64,000 bases of DNA from Thermoleophilaceae bacterium (GTDB taxonomy: Bacteria; Actinomycetota; Thermoleophilia; Solirubrobacterales; Thermoleophilaceae): NCBI GenBank assembly GCA_036378175.1, contig DASUWY010000005.1, positions 1-64,000 on the forward strand, read 5' to 3'. How positions within the stretch are numbered: the first letter of the stretch is position 1; every line of letters begins with the position of its first letter. Under the pieces are notes generated by a model. That model made no database searches. It was not told the origin of the DNA and worked only from the letters and a program-made list of their open reading frames with translations. This document shows positions 17,941 through 49,461 of the stretch, piece after piece. The translations under genes were made by a program, and so were the position numbers.

Positions 17941-18050
17941 CCGCAGGTAGAGGGCAGGACCGCCTCTAACCCGGGCGCTAGGGGCCCGGGCTGGAACGGG
18001 GCGAATCCGACCGGATCTCCGGTCTTGCGCGCTGCGGCGCGCGCCTGCGG
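17941..18050 (+). ncRNA. Structured 5' leader of the RlpA-like gene, riboswitch candidate
   Basis: The 5' region folds by inspection into a multibranched RNA. CCGCAGG (17941-17947) closes with CCTGCGG (18044-18050). Inside lie AGAGG/CCTCT (17949-17953/17963-17967), CCCGGGC/GCCCGGG (17970-17976/17984-17990), GACCGG/CCGGTC (18009-18014/18019-18024) and GCGCGC/GCGCGC (18027-18032/18037-18042). Between them is the unpaired GGAACGGGGCGAATCC. In actinobacteria, cell-wall hydrolase and RlpA/NlpC genes are often preceded by the ydaO (c-di-AMP) riboswitch, and this segment recalls its 5' half. The usual CAGCTAACC segment is not seen, so the class assignment is weak. Confidence 0.45.
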
Positions 18051-38964: not shown

Positions 38965-39096
38965 GTGGTCTCCTGCGTCGGGAATCGGGACCTGAGACCG
39001 CCCCTGCGGGCTGAATTCATCGCCCTTTACGAAATCTCGATGGCGCGGCCTCATTCCTTTGCGCGGTCTTGATGGCGCGCTGATGACACTCAATAC

Positions 39097-39177
39097 ATGG
39101 ATGTCGTGGCCATCGCAATCGCCGTCGCGGCCTTCGCAGTTCTGATCGCCTCGCTCCGCCTCGTTGAACGGATATGA
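39097..39177 (+). CDS. 26-residue single-helix microprotein ahead of kdpF
   Basis: ATG 39097 opens a 26-codon frame whose product is almost one hydrophobic helix (VVAIAIAVAAFAVLIASLRL) with a basic end. Its TGA overlaps the ATG of kdpF (ATGA). Similar tiny one-helix frames precede kdpF in other bacteria, as far as I recall. It may be a second KdpF-like stabiliser of the Kdp complex or a translational leader for kdpF. The 132 bases before it contain a repeated GATGGCGCG (39040-39048 and 39071-39079) and must hold the kdp promoter. Confidence 0.55.
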   Translation: MDVVAIAIAVAAFAVLIASLRLVERI

Positions 39178-39263
39178 GCGCTGCCGACGTTCTCGGCCTC
39201 GCCGTATCGGCGGTCGTCTTCGTCTACCTGGTCTACGCGCTCGTACGCGGGGAGCGCCTTTAG
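39174..39263 (+). CDS. kdpF: KdpF subunit of the K+-transporting ATPase
   Basis: A 29-residue membrane peptide (residues 5-23 hydrophobic, ending YLVYALVRGERL), the characteristic size and sequence of KdpF. KdpF stabilises the KdpABC complex at the membrane. Its start overlaps the upstream microprotein, and its TAG is immediately followed by the kdpA ATG. Confidence 0.88.
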   Translation: MSAADVLGLAVSAVVFVYLVYALVRGERL

Positions 39264-41015
39264 ATGCCCCAGGGCTGGCTGCAGATCGCAGTCTTCCTGC
39301 TTGTGCTCACGGCCATCGTGCCGCTGCTCGGCGGCTACATGGCGAAGGTGTTCACCGGCGAGCGGGTGTTCCTGACGCCGGTGGTGGGACGGCTCGAGCG
39401 CCTGCTCTACCGGCTGATTCGAGTGCGCCCCGACGAGGGTCAGGACTGGAAGCAGTACGCGCGCAGCCTGCTGGTCTTCTCACTGCTGTTCTGGCTCGTG
39501 CTGTACGTGATCCTGCGGACGCAGACGCTCCATCCGTGGAACCCGCAGGGCTTCCACTCGGGCACCTGGGACGTGACCTTCAACACCACGTCGTCGTTCA
39601 TCACGAACACGAACTGGCAGTACTACGGCGGCGAGACCACGATGACCTATTTCAGCCAGATGGCGGGGCTGGCTGTGCAGAACTTCGTGTCGGCGGCGGT
39701 GGGCATCGTTGTGGTGATCGCGCTCATCCGCGGCATCGCGGCACGCAGCGGACGGAGCCTTGGCAACTTCTGGCAGGACCTCACCCGCTGCATCCTCTAC
39801 GTGCTGTTGCCGATCTCGGTGATCGGCGCGCTCGTGCTGGTGTCGCAGGGCGTGATCCAGAACTTCGCGAGCTATGCCACGGCGCACACGCTCGCCGGAG
39901 GGACCCAGACCCTCGCCTTCGGCCCCGTGGCATCCCAGGAGATCATCAAGGAGCTCGGCACGAACGGCGGCGGCTTCTTCAACGCGAACTCGGCCTACCC
40001 GTTCGAGAACCCCACCGCTCTCTCCAACTTCGTCGAGATGGTGGCGATCCTCGCGATTCCGGCATCGCTCACGTTCACCTACGGGCGAATGGTCGGCAGC
40101 AGGCGCCAGGGCTGGGCGATCTTCTCGGCAATGGGGATCCTGTTCCTGATCGGCGTGATCGTCGCGGTGATCGCCGAGCAGCACGGCACCCCGGCCCAGC
40201 ACCTCGCAGGGGTGAACACGCATCATCTCGCCGGCTCCACCGGCGGCAACCTGGAGGGCAAGGAGCAGCGCTTCGGGATCACGAACACGGCGCTGTGGGC
40301 GGCCATCACCACAGTCACGTCGTGCGGGGCGGTGAACGGCGCCATGGAGTCGCTCACCGGCATCGGCGGCGCCGTGCCGTTCTCCAACCTCGGGATGAGC
40401 GAGGTGGTGTTCGGAGGAGTGGGCACGGGGCTCTACTCGATGCTGATCTTCGTTCTGCTCGCCGTGTTCATCGGCGGCCTGATGGTGGGGAGGACGCCCG
40501 AGTACCTCGGCAAGAAGATCGGGGCGCGCGACATCAAGCTGGTGTCGCTGGCCGCGCTGTTCACGCCGCTCACGGTGCTCCTCACAGCCGGCACGGCCAT
40601 AGCGGCGCCCGCAGGCAGGCAGTCGATCTCCGCGCCCGGCCCGCAGGGGTTTTCACAGAACCTCTACGCCTACCTCTCGCAGGCGAACAACAACGGCTCT
40701 GCCTGGGCCGGCTTCACGGGCTACATCCAGCCCCACCCCGGCAACCTCGGCGCCCACGGCGTGAAGCTCGCGACCATCATGGGAGGGCTGACGATGGTGT
40801 TCGCGCGCTACGCGCCGATCATCCTCGTGCTCGCCGTGGCGGGCGCGCTGGCCGGGAAGAAGGTCCATCCCGCCGGCCCTGGGACGATGCGCACCGACAC
40901 TCCCACGTTCGTCGTGCTCCTGATCGGCGTGATCGTCCTCGTCGGCGCGCTCACGTTCTTCCCCGCGATCCTGCTCGGCCCGATCGTGCAGGGGCTCTCC
41001 AACCAGCTCTTCTGA
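39264..41015 (+). CDS. kdpA: Potassium-transporting ATPase, K+-binding subunit
   Basis: A 583-residue channel-like subunit that selects potassium for the Kdp pump. It has about ten membrane helices and selectivity-type loops, for example [40 protein letters not shown] with the TNGGG filter, [20 protein letters not shown] and [15 protein letters not shown]. The size fits the family. It begins directly after kdpF, and its stop overlaps kdpC (TGATG). Confidence 0.97.
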
Positions 41016-41598
41016 TGCGGCGCGATGTGATCACATCCGCTCTCGCCGTGGTGGTGCTCACAGTGCTCCTCGGTCTGGCGTACCCGCTGGTGGTCACCGG
41101 CATCGCGCAGGTCGCCTTTCACGGCAAGGCCAACGGCGAGCAGGTGAGGATGAACGGCAGGCTCCTGGGCTCGAAGCTGATCGGCCAGGACTTCCGCGGG
41201 CTCAGGCGCTACTTCCAGCCGCGGCCGTCCACCGCCACGTCCTACAACGCGGCGGGCAGCGCGTTCACCAACCTCGGCCCCAACAGCAGGACGGCGAGGG
41301 ATACGTTCGCCGCGTCGTTGCGCGCATACCTCGCACGGGAGCGGCCGTTCGACGCGGGTCTCACCGCGGGCAAGGTGCCGGTGGACGCCGTGACCAGCTC
41401 GGCCTCCGGCGTGGATCCGCAGATCTCGCAGGCCAACGCCGCGATCCAGGCCCACCGGATCGTGGCGGTGCGCCACGTTCCGCTGGCGGTCGTGCGGAAG
41501 CTCATCGAGCAGAACACGAGCGCTCGGTTTCTCGGCGTGCTCGGCGAGCCGGGCGTGAACGTGCTCGCGCTCAACCTCGCCCTGGACCGGACGACGAG

Positions 41599-41602
<4 letters not shown>
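41015..41602 (+). CDS. kdpC: Potassium-transporting ATPase subunit C
   Basis: A 195-residue subunit with one N-terminal membrane helix (about residues 8-28, [20 protein letters not shown]). The periplasmic domain contains [56 protein letters not shown] and [18 protein letters not shown]. All are standard KdpC landmarks, although the third block is slightly unusual. It lies before kdpB, whereas the common order is A-B-C. Its ATG is inside the kdpA stop, and its own stop overlaps the kdpB start (ATGA). Confidence 0.95.
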
Positions 41603-43638
<2,036 letters not shown>

Positions 43639-43672: not shown

Positions 43673-44797
43673 ATGACGGCGCGCGGCAGCTACAAGATCT
43701 TCCTCGGGATGGCGGCCGGTGTGGGCAAGACCTACCGGATGCTGCAGGAGGGTCGCGCCGCGGCTGAGGCTGGGACGGACGTGGTGATCGGCTACCTCGA
43801 GCCGCACGAGCGCGCCGAGACGATCGCGCTCACCGAGGGCCTCGAGAGCGTGCCCCGCCGCCGGGTCCCTTACCGCGACACGTTCACGGACGAGATGGAC
43901 CTCCCGGCGGTGCTCGAGCGCGACCCCGAGCTCTGTCTGATCGACGAACTTGCACACACCAACCCGCCGGGGCTCGACCACGAGAAGCGCTACGAGGACA
44001 TCGACGACGTGCTTACGGCGGGGATCGACGTGTACTCCACGGTCAACGTGCAGCACCTCGAGAGCCTCAACGATCAGGTGGCGGAGCTCACCGGTGTGCG
44101 CGTGCGCGAGACCTTTCCGGACACCGTGCTGTCGTCTGCCGACGAGGTCGTGCTCATCGACCTCACGCCGCAGGCGCTCATTCAGCGGCTGCGCGAGGGG
44201 AAGGTCTATCCGCCGGACCGGGTGGACGCGGCGCTCAACAACTTCTTCAAGGTCGAGAACCTGGATGCGCTCCGCGAGATCGCCCTGCGTCAGGTGGCGG
44301 AGGACGTGGAGGCCAAGCGCGTGGTCACCGAGTTCGTGGGCACGCGCGAGGAGCGCGTGGCCGGCGCGGCGCCGCATGCGGTGGGGGAGCGGCTGATGGC
44401 GCTCGTGAGCGCACGGCCCTCGTCACAGCGGCTGGCACGCCGTGCGTGGCGCTCGGCGCAGCGACTGGGCGCCGAGCTTGACCTGGTTTACGTGAAGAAA
44501 CCCGGAGCGAAGAGCGACGCCGGCCGGCAGGAGCAGCTCGAGGCGCTGCGCAAGCTCGCCGCCGCGCTGGGAGCTCACCTGCTCATCGAGGAAGGACACG
44601 ACGTGGCGGAGACGGCCGCGCGCGTGGGAGCCAGACGCGGAACCACGTACGTGCTGATCGGCGAGCCGCGGTCGGCAACCGGGTTGCGGCGCTTCGGAGT
44701 GTCGCTGCCCGAGAAGCTGCTCGAGCAGATGCCGGGTGTGGACATCCGCATCGTGGCGGACCGGGCCAAGCGGCCCGGGGGAGCGGAGGGACAATGA
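43673..44797 (+). CDS. kdpD: Truncated KdpD: KdpD and USP domains, no histidine kinase
   Basis: A 374-residue protein equal to the N-terminal cytoplasmic part of KdpD. The Walker A is GMAAGVGKTYRMLQEG (residues 12-27), the Walker B is LCLIDELAHTNPPGLDHEKR, and DVYSTVNVQHLESLNDQVAE follows. After residue 230 comes a USP-type domain (SSQRLARRAWRSAQRLGAEL, ending GVSLPEKLLEQMPGVDIRIV). The four membrane helices, GAF, HisKA and ATPase domains of the roughly 900-residue E. coli KdpD are absent, and no KdpE gene follows. Short KdpDs of this type are known in cyanobacteria. I chose ATG 43673, with GAGGAGAGG before it, over GTG 43640. The stop overlaps the next USP gene. Confidence 0.88.
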   Translation: MTARGSYKIFLGMAAGVGKTYRMLQEGRAAAEAGTDVVIGYLEPHERAETIALTEGLESVPRRRVPYRDTFTDEMDLPAVLERDPELCLIDELAHTNPPGLDHEKRYEDIDDVLTAGIDVYSTVNVQHLESLNDQVAELTGVRVRETFPDTVLSSADEVVLIDLTPQALIQRLREGKVYPPDRVDAALNNFFKVENLDALREIALRQVAEDVEAKRVVTEFVGTREERVAGAAPHAVGERLMALVSARPSSQRLARRAWRSAQRLGAELDLVYVKKPGAKSDAGRQEQLEALRKLAAALGAHLLIEEGHDVAETAARVGARRGTTYVLIGEPRSATGLRRFGVSLPEKLLEQMPGVDIRIVADRAKRPGGAEGQ

Positions 44798-45348
44798 TCG
44801 TCGCGCTTGCAATCGTGGCCGGCATCCTGGTGGCGGGGCTCGTTCTGCTCGCATACCGCTGGCATCACCCCGAGAAGGCGCCGAACCGCATCACGCCGGC
44901 GGCGGAACGCATCCTGTTCCCGCTGCTGGGAGACACGATCTCGCAGCCGGCGCTTGATGCCACGCTCCGCCTTGCGCGTGCCGAGGGGGCCACCCTGATT
45001 CCCGCCTACCTGGCCATCGTGCCGCTCCAGCTTCCTCTTGCGGCGCCGCTGCCCGCGGAGTGCGAGCGCGCGATGCCGCTGCTCGAAACGATCGAGCAGC
45101 GCGCGGCGCGGCTCGGGGTGCCGGTGGACTCGCGCATCGAGACCGGTCGCTCGCCGCGGCACGCCCTGCGGCAGCTGCTCGCGGAGGAGCGGTTCAATCG
45201 CATCATCGTCCCCGCCGCCACCGGCAGCACTTCTGGCTTCTCACCCGAGGACATCGCCTGGCTGCTTGAGAGTGCGCCCGGCGAGATCATGGTCATGCGG
45301 GCTGAGCGGTTAAAGCAGAGTCGCAGCGCGCTCGCGCACACGAGCTAG
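44794..45348 (+). CDS. Membrane-anchored universal-stress-type protein
   Basis: A 184-residue protein with an N-terminal membrane helix (residues 2-22, IVALAIVAGILVAGLVLLAY), then a USP-like alpha/beta domain (RILFPLLGDTISQPALDATL, then LLAEERFNRIIVPAATGSTS and LESAPGEIMVMRAERL). The GSTS segment is at the usual nucleotide-loop place. It overlaps the kdpD stop by ATGA, so it belongs to the kdp operon. It may work with the kinase-less KdpD in sensing potassium or a nucleotide, an idea based only on position. A 12-bp palindrome, TAGCCGCGGCTA, covers its stop. Confidence 0.75.
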   Translation: MIVALAIVAGILVAGLVLLAYRWHHPEKAPNRITPAAERILFPLLGDTISQPALDATLRLARAEGATLIPAYLAIVPLQLPLAAPLPAECERAMPLLETIEQRAARLGVPVDSRIETGRSPRHALRQLLAEERFNRIIVPAATGSTSGFSPEDIAWLLESAPGEIMVMRAERLKQSRSALAHTS

Positions 45349-47493: not shown

Positions 47494-49461
47494 CTAGACC
47501 TCGATCCGCGACCCCATGATCACGGTGCGGTCGCGCGGCAGATGGAAGTAGTCCGCGGCTTCGGAGGTGATCCGGGCGGTGGCAAGGAAGAGCACCTTGC
47601 GCCAGCGGCTCAGGCCCGGCGCATCGCCCTTGTAGAGCTCGATCTTCGATAGGAAGTACGACGCCGTGGCCGGATCGCACGGCGCCTCGAGCTGCGCTTC
47701 CTCCATCCCCTGGAGAACGAGCGGCACGTTCGCGGCGTCCAGGTAGCCGAAGCGCGCTCCCACGTGCGTGATGCCGTCGTCCGAATAGCCGAGGTCGTCG
47801 TAGCTCAGCCGTTTCGCCGGCGGCACGTGGGGGACGGGCTCGGTGTAGATCGACATGATGATCACGCGCTCCGACAGCGCGTGGAGGTGCTCCACGCTCT
47901 CGCGCATCGCGAGCGGCGCCGTCTGGTTGTTGCGGTTGAGGAAGACCGCCGTGCCCGGCACCCGCCGCACGGGATAGCGGCGGCTGTGCAGGTCCGTGAT
48001 GAAGGCCTGCAGCGGCCCCTCCTCGTCCTCACGTCGCCGCGTGACGATCTCGCGGCCGCGCTGCCAGGTGGTGAGGATGGTGTAGGCCGTGATGCCGATC
48101 AAGAGCGGCAGCCAGGCGCCGTGCGTGACCTTGGTGAGGTTCGCGGCGAGGAACATCAGGTCGATCGCGAGGAGGAAGCCCGCCACGGGCGCGATCAGCC
48201 ACAGCGGCTTTCGCCACTGGTGCCGGACGATGAAGAAGAAGAGCAGCGTGGTGATCGTGATCGTTCCGGTGACGGCCACGCCATACGCGAAGGCGAGCGC
48301 TGTGGAGCTCTCGAACGTGAACACGAGCGTGAGCACCGAGACCATCAGGAGCCAGTTGATCCCCGGCACGTAGATCTGCCCGATCGTCTCCGCGGACGTG
48401 TGCGTTATCCGCAGGCGCGGCAGGTAGCCGAGCTGCACCGCCTGATAGGCCACGGAGAAGGCGCCGCTGATCACAGCCTGCGATGCGATCACCGTGGCGA
48501 GCGTGGCGAGGAACACGAGCGGCCACTGCGCCCAGTGCGGCACGAGCAGGAAGAACGGATTGCTGATGTTGGCCGGGTTGTCCAGGACCAGGGCGCCCTG
48601 GCCCATGTAGCTGAGGGTGCACGCGGGAAAGACGAGAAAGAGCCAGGCGCGGGTGATCGGGGCGCGGCCGAAGTGACCCATGTCCGCGTACAGCGCCTCC
48701 GCGCCCGTCACCGCCAGCACCACGCCGGCAAGCGCGAAGAACGCGGTGGAGAAATGGGAGAAGAAGAAGCTCACCGCGTATGTGGGCGACAGCGCCCTGA
48801 GGATCGACGGGTGCTTGGTGATCCCATTGATGCCGCAGACGGCGATCACGGTGAACCAGACGAGCATGATCGGGCCGAACAGCCTGCCGACGACGGTGGT
48901 GCCGGCTCGCTGGAAGAGGAACAGCGCGACGATAATCGCCGCGGTTATGGGAACCACGAGATGGCCGATCGAAGGCGAGGCCACCTTGAGCCCTCCAACG
49001 GCCGACAGCACCGAGATCGCCGGTGTGATCATGCTGTCGCCGAGGAAGAGCGACGCTCCGAAGATGCCGAGCGCCGCCAGCGCGGCCGTGCGGTGGCCGC
49101 GGCCGAGCTCGCGGCCACGCCGGATCAGCGTGATCAGGGCCATGATGCCGCCTTCGCCCTGATTGTCCGCGCGCATCACGAGCAGCACGTACGTGACGGT
49201 TACCACGAGCACGATCGACCAGAAGACCATCGAGAGGATCCCGAGCACGCTCGTGTTGGTGGCCGCGACGGGATGCGGATCGTGCGGGTCGAAGATCGTC
49301 TGGATCGCGTAGAGCGGGCTCGTGCCGATGTCGCCGAACACGACGCCGAGCGCGCCGATCGTCAGAGCGGCCCTCGCCGCTCGGGTGCGGTCCGCGTCGG
49401 TGGTCCTTGCGTGAGGGGACAGGCTTGCGACCCTACAGCCCGGCCGTCCCTGCTTTCTCAC
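47494..49461 (-). CDS. kup: Kup-type potassium uptake transporter
   Basis: A 655-residue low-affinity K+/H+ symporter. The first helix has LTIGALGVVFGDIGTSPLYA, the Kup hallmark, followed by NQGEGGIMALITLIRRG, GDSMITPAISVLSAVGGL and NPANISNPFFLLVPHW. There are about twelve helices and a cytoplasmic tail of about 190 residues (ISHERVIIMSIYTEPVPHVP-like; the exact text begins SERVIIMSIYTEP). GTG 49461 is the only clear start. It sits about 4 kb from kdp on the opposite strand, so high- and low-affinity potassium uptake are clustered. Confidence 0.95.
   Translation of the reverse strand: MRKQGRPGCRVASLSPHARTTDADRTRAARAALTIGALGVVFGDIGTSPLYAIQTIFDPHDPHPVAATNTSVLGILSMVFWSIVLVVTVTYVLLVMRADNQGEGGIMALITLIRRGRELGRGHRTAALAALGIFGASLFLGDSMITPAISVLSAVGGLKVASPSIGHLVVPITAAIIVALFLFQRAGTTVVGRLFGPIMLVWFTVIAVCGINGITKHPSILRALSPTYAVSFFFSHFSTAFFALAGVVLAVTGAEALYADMGHFGRAPITRAWLFLVFPACTLSYMGQGALVLDNPANISNPFFLLVPHWAQWPLVFLATLATVIASQAVISGAFSVAYQAVQLGYLPRLRITHTSAETIGQIYVPGINWLLMVSVLTLVFTFESSTALAFAYGVAVTGTITITTLLFFFIVRHQWRKPLWLIAPVAGFLLAIDLMFLAANLTKVTHGAWLPLLIGITAYTILTTWQRGREIVTRRREDEEGPLQAFITDLHSRRYPVRRVPGTAVFLNRNNQTAPLAMRESVEHLHALSERVIIMSIYTEPVPHVPPAKRLSYDDLGYSDDGITHVGARFGYLDAANVPLVLQGMEEAQLEAPCDPATASYFLSKIELYKGDAPGLSRWRKVLFLATARITSEAADYFHLPRDRTVIMGSRIEV

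Follow-up and report, generated by a model that had tools for sequence, protein, structure and literature searches.

The 64,000-nucleotide stretch of Thermoleophilaceae bacterium DNA analyzed here (contig DASUWY010000005.1, positions 1 to 64,000 of the forward strand, referred to as the window) contains a complete kdp operon. The pump genes lie in the order kdpF-A-C-B and are followed by a gene for a short KdpD (KdpD') and a gene for a membrane-anchored protein with the universal stress protein (USP) fold (USP2). The original prediction, made from the letters of the window, held that KdpD' and USP2 might form a two-piece sensor acting on the KdpFABC pump directly instead of on transcription. 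The features of the locus are as follows.

39025..39074, plus strand: predicted KdpE operator, two pairs of half-sites with 11-bp spacing (39025-39042 and 39057-39074), the pairs lying 32 bp apart.
39097..39177, plus strand: hydrophobic leader open reading frame (ORF) of 26 amino acids, with an ATGA overlap with the start of kdpF.
39174..39263, plus strand: kdpF (Pfam PF09604, 25.1 bits).
39264..41015, plus strand: kdpA (PF03814, 744.9 bits; TIGR00680 above cut-off).
41015..41602, plus strand: kdpC (PF02669, 202.8 bits), preceding kdpB as in relatives.
41599..43638, plus strand: kdpB (TIGR01497, 1023.7 bits), with Ser151 of TGES placed by residue mapping.
43673..44797, plus strand: short KdpD (KdpD'), KdpD and USP domains, 374 amino acids (PF02702, 311.5 bits; folds 2r8r and 7ji4; catalytic residues kept).
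44794..45348, plus strand: USP2, membrane-anchored USP-fold protein, 184 amino acids, with an ATGA overlap with kdpD' (structure model, fold match, and conserved pairing).

KdpD' had been described as ending after its KdpD and USP domains, and this proved correct, as did its coordinates. Domain searches found no transmembrane, DUF4118, HisKA, HATPase, GAF, or DHpCA domain in the chain, nor did it contain a hydrophobic stretch of the sort expected for a membrane-spanning helix. Translation starts at the ATG at 43673, downstream of a purine-rich AGGAGAG sequence, and the starts of its relatives concur. In the structure model, the KdpD domain matched 2r8r with a TM score of 0.95, and the USP domain matched that of Staphylococcus aureus KdpD, 7ji4, with a TM score of 0.84. 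The Pfam Usp model matched the latter domain weakly (21.4 bits, cut-off 24), and a profile match gave an E value of 4.9e-6. The closest NCBIfam model was NF038185 (KdpD_non_kinase, "KdpD-like non-kinase potassium sensor"). Since the score of 332.2 bits falls below its cut-off of 550, we did not assign KdpD' to that family. KdpD' was the single match to the PF02702 KdpD domain in the genome (4.29 Mb, 95% complete).

Silberberg et al. (2024, PMC11018627) identified the KdpD domain as an atypical serine kinase (ASK), which inhibits the pump through phosphorylation of KdpB at Ser162. The equivalents of Escherichia coli Gly36, Lys37, Thr38, Asp109, Glu110, and Arg190, which comprise the Walker A GKT, the Walker B DE, and Arg190, were identical in KdpD' and all 27 aligned relatives. 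The position of E. coli Trp39 was occupied by Tyr in KdpD' and most relatives, and the same was found in the Deinococcus, Trichormus, and Allomeiothermus sequences. The target serine was also conserved: by residue mapping, Ser151 in TGES of KdpB is the equivalent of E. coli Ser162. KdpD' is therefore, on its sequence, a predicted atypical serine kinase of KdpB. Short KdpDs are an already published class, known to switch the pump off by phosphorylation. KdpDs with KdpD and USP domains only occur in many species, and c-di-AMP stimulates the short KdpD of Deinococcus geothermalis, which phosphorylates KdpB at the TGES serine (PMC11018627). Because of this precedent, established in another species, and because the kinase and target residues are kept, direct action of KdpD' on the pump would be the expected mode. 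To this extent the original prediction was borne out; its exclusion of transcription was not, as described below.

The second gene overlaps kdpD' at 44794, and its product has both the membrane helix and the USP fold that had been proposed for it. The structure model (pLDDT 89.9) consists of one helix, residues 2 to 24, and a USP fold. A fold search supported this assignment (best VIA Z 14.8, 3.0 Å over 130 residues), and the protein passed the Pfam Usp cut-off of 24 with 25.1 bits. A search for related loci with the single USP2 protein returned two Solirubrobacterales loci. Across 299 genomes of the class (Thermoleophilia; two named relatives point to the order Solirubrobacterales), 47 of the 48 strong USP2 matches lay directly after a KdpD without its kinase half, in many genera, so the pairing of KdpD' with USP2 is real and not a matter of chance. 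The remaining match covered half of the protein and came from a genome without a KdpD match above cut-off. Among the 30 USP2s examined in full, the 4-base overlap with kdpD' was present in 27 and the N-terminal helix in 28. Outside the class, a USP2-type pair was found in one genome of 36 (class of G601), together with kdpB and kdpC (L104), and the plasmid short KdpD loci of Deinococcus, Allomeiothermus, and Trichormus that we examined had no USP2-like neighbor. A duplication of the KdpD' USP domain was considered as the source of USP2 and rejected, a profile comparison having shown no similarity (probability 0.4%). In the literature searched, we found no publication that describes kdp operons with an anchored USP, nor any on KdpD in Solirubrobacter. 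USP2 is the least documented part of the system, and this conserved membrane-anchored companion of KdpD looks new.

Two of the related loci have unusual arrangements. In one (L059; G288:C134:18369-18995), a copy of the short KdpD contains a single internal TGA and adjoins an intact-looking USP2. Another (L089, in G151) has two short KdpDs within 7 kb; USP2 follows one of them only, and the interval from USP2 to the second KdpD contains an operator-like pair.

As had been noted, no kinase or kdpE gene adjoins kdpD' and USP2 in the window. The genome search for a separate kinase half and KdpE, suggested at the same time, found candidates for both on another contig, C1: a 472-amino-acid protein that combines DUF4118, HisKA, and HATPase domains and, after it, a 231-amino-acid OmpR-type regulator whose best NCBIfam model was KdpE. 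When the kdp-linked KdpE of a genome of the same family (G282) was compared with this genome, its best match was the C1 regulator, at 61% identity, and the next was at 43%. Relatives usually have the order kinase, regulator, kdpF-A-C-B, kdpD', and USP2. At least 24 of 47 loci had a same-strand DUF4118 match 3 to 14 kb upstream, and at least 42 of the 47 came from genomes with such a match at any position. Both gene sets occurred in one locus in G160 (L103). The C1 pair, for its part, is unlinked from kdp and adjoins an APC permease that bears a USP domain.

That permease (L067:1853-3787) carries its USP domain at the C terminus, adjoins the KdpE-like regulator gene, has a paired repeat upstream, and may share the regulator. 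We considered it as a relative of KimA and rejected this; KimA (6s3k) matched at 3.5e-15, yet amino-acid transporters matched better.

Repeats of the form CTTnAC-n5-CTTGAYG were found upstream of kdpF in relatives. Of the 17 upstream regions, 12 contained a loose version of the pattern, in every case on the coding strand, against 0.6 expected from 200 shuffles, the largest of which gave 3. The count alone is not independent, because the pattern was derived from those regions. Wherever two copies of the repeat occurred, they were exactly 32 bp apart, a spacing that the pattern does not impose. We also built a matrix from the sites of relatives only, leaving this genome out. Of all 127,966 positions scored in the window, it placed 39025 first and 39057 second; as a pair they scored 42.2, against 8.1 for the best non-overlapping pair at the 32-bp spacing. 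In the 12 kb around the C1 genes, the best matrix pair lay where the regulator gene ends, ahead of the permease, and scored 18.4 against 6.6. The genome-wide search used a pattern drawn from the two copies (kdp and C1) in place of the matrix and, allowing up to 3 mismatches, found no other copy in the genome. These matches suggest that the C1 regulator controls both kdp and the APC permease through the predicted operator.

Because a kinase and a KdpE-like regulator are encoded elsewhere, and because the same repeat stands before kdpF and beside the kdpE-like gene, we assign the system, as read from its genes, to the split KdpDs, with the serine-kinase half beside the pump and the histidine-kinase half on a separate chain. 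The presence of the predicted operator at both places argues against the view that control is exerted on the pump instead of on transcription.

The genome encodes the diadenylate cyclase DisA (469 bits, cut-off 201) and contains 11 c-di-AMP riboswitches above the gathering score on contigs outside the window (e.g., L109-L116), from which we conclude that the organism uses c-di-AMP. No c-di-AMP riboswitch in the window scored above gathering against Rfam. The proposed link to a riboswitch at 17941 fell away, since that site had no Rfam match at gathering, and a relaxed limit of E values up to 1 gave just two weak, unrelated ones.

In the mechanism that we propose, KdpD' would phosphorylate Ser151 in TGES of KdpB and so shut KdpFABC when K+ is ample, the kinase probably responding to c-di-AMP from DisA. 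The N-terminal helix of USP2 would fix this protein in the membrane, and USP2 would bind the USP domain of KdpD' and so keep the kinase at the pump. It would take the place of the membrane tether that is built into the chain of a full-length KdpD; it may also add a second ligand input. At the level of transcription, the unlinked DUF4118 histidine kinase and the KdpE-like regulator would act at the paired direct-repeat operator before kdpF. Tethering and binding by USP2 are inferred because KdpD' has no membrane segment, because its target is a membrane pump, and because E. coli UspC is known to bind the USP domain of KdpD (PMC2714519).

We consider this reading as a whole, with a serine kinase at the pump, a USP2 tether, and unlinked transcription control of the KdpDE type, to be probable, with moderate confidence. 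Several observations weigh against it. The C1 regulator scored 243.7 bits with the KdpE model, under the cut-off of 325, so that the genome search yielded a DUF4118 kinase and a regulator that is KdpE-like and below the KdpE threshold. The operator motif was first recognized by eye in the same upstream regions in which it was later counted. Two of the 30 USP2s lacked the helix, and some short KdpDs of the class, such as that of G282, have no USP2 behind them; USP2 is thus not essential to the function of a short KdpD. Finally, the c-di-AMP motif of Firmicutes KdpDs, (A/G/C)XSXSX2N(Y/F) (PMC8214093), agrees with KdpD' at just 2 of 5 positions. This last failure says little, because the KdpD of Deinococcus radiodurans, used here in place of that of D. 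geothermalis, which was absent from the plasmid matches, fails as well.

The pump-only alternative, in which KdpD' and USP2 are the sole K+ regulator of the operon and there is no transcriptional KdpDE control, would fit the absence of an adjoining kinase or regulator gene and the single PF02702 match. The kinase with the C-terminal half of a KdpD and the KdpE-like regulator on C1 speak against it, as does the KdpE-type predicted operator before kdpF and by the regulator gene, and we think it improbable. A somewhat better case can be made for USP2 as itself a nucleotide sensor of c-di-AMP, ATP, or AMP that signals to KdpD' or KdpFABC, with anchoring secondary. Its USP fold has nucleotide-binding relatives, among them 7ji4, with c-di-AMP, and 5ahw, with cAMP; the polar residues R59, E101, R114, R119, and E164 and also W156 were invariant in the alignment; and its nearest domain in the genome was the USP domain of the APC permease beside the kdpE-like gene. 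By eye, however, the G-X2-G-X9-G-(S/T) loop of ATP-binding USPs was not present in the 30 aligned USP2s, a short variable loop standing in its place, and we regard a primary sensing role as unlikely. USPs are present in many operons, and USP2 could have a general stress role, being merely cotranscribed with kdp and without a Kdp function. The short KdpDs that lack USP2 fit this idea, but 47 of 48 strong matches directly after a kinase-less KdpD, mostly with translational overlap and in many genera, do not, and we judge it very improbable.

The split-KdpD reading can be extended to a three-piece Kdp control in Thermoleophilia, which we put forward as a tentative possibility. The anchored USP would both recruit and gate KdpD', and a shared operator of 32-bp spacing would let the kinase half and KdpE, which are encoded apart from kdp in this genome, coregulate kdp and an APC permease that carries a related USP domain. 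How the KdpD serine kinase is controlled without K+-sensing membrane domains is an open question in published work (PMC11018627). A conserved, cotranslated anchored USP would be a testable answer to it and would also offer a soluble kinase a route to its membrane target. With the predicted operator, the matter of what controls orphan short-KdpD operons becomes a defined two-site question.

Other features of the locus lie outside this argument. Placement of kdpC ahead of kdpB was the rule in the class loci examined. The 26-amino-acid hydrophobic ORF at 39097-39177 may encode another small peptide of the pump; of 17 kdp loci in the class, 16 had a comparable tiny hydrophobic ORF ahead of kdpF. 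On the minus strand, a long ORF at 47494-49461 had matches of 69% and 55% identity beside kdp in two other loci (L095 and L098). We take it, by recognition and with no family search run, to resemble a Kup-type K+ transporter.

Among known systems, KdpD' most resembles the short KdpD of D. geothermalis (PMC11018627), with which it shares a chain of KdpD and USP domains only, the serine-kinase residues, and a diadenylate cyclase gene in the genome. The locus differs from the plasmid loci of Deinococcus, Allomeiothermus, and Trichormus, D. geothermalis itself not being among those plasmid matches, in that an overlapping gene for an anchored USP follows here only. TeaD is a USP named with the TRAP transporter TeaABC, a different transporter from KdpFABC. 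Compared by fold alone, USP2 shares its USP fold with this transporter-associated USP of Halomonas elongata (PDB 3hgm). USP2 also resembles E. coli UspC (PMC2714519) as a separate USP protein proposed to partner the USP domain of KdpD. Unlike UspC, it is membrane anchored and encoded with kdpD', and its binding to KdpD' is a proposal. A division of the ASK and the histidine kinase (HK) between two chains is known in Acidobacteriota and Chloroflexota and in D. radiodurans and Anabaena (PMC11018627, PMC5716572). Like those split ASK/HK systems, this one would keep the serine-kinase half by the pump and the histidine kinase and regulator as separate genes, whereas the kinase and regulator genes here are unlinked from kdp and stand beside an APC permease that has a USP domain of its own.
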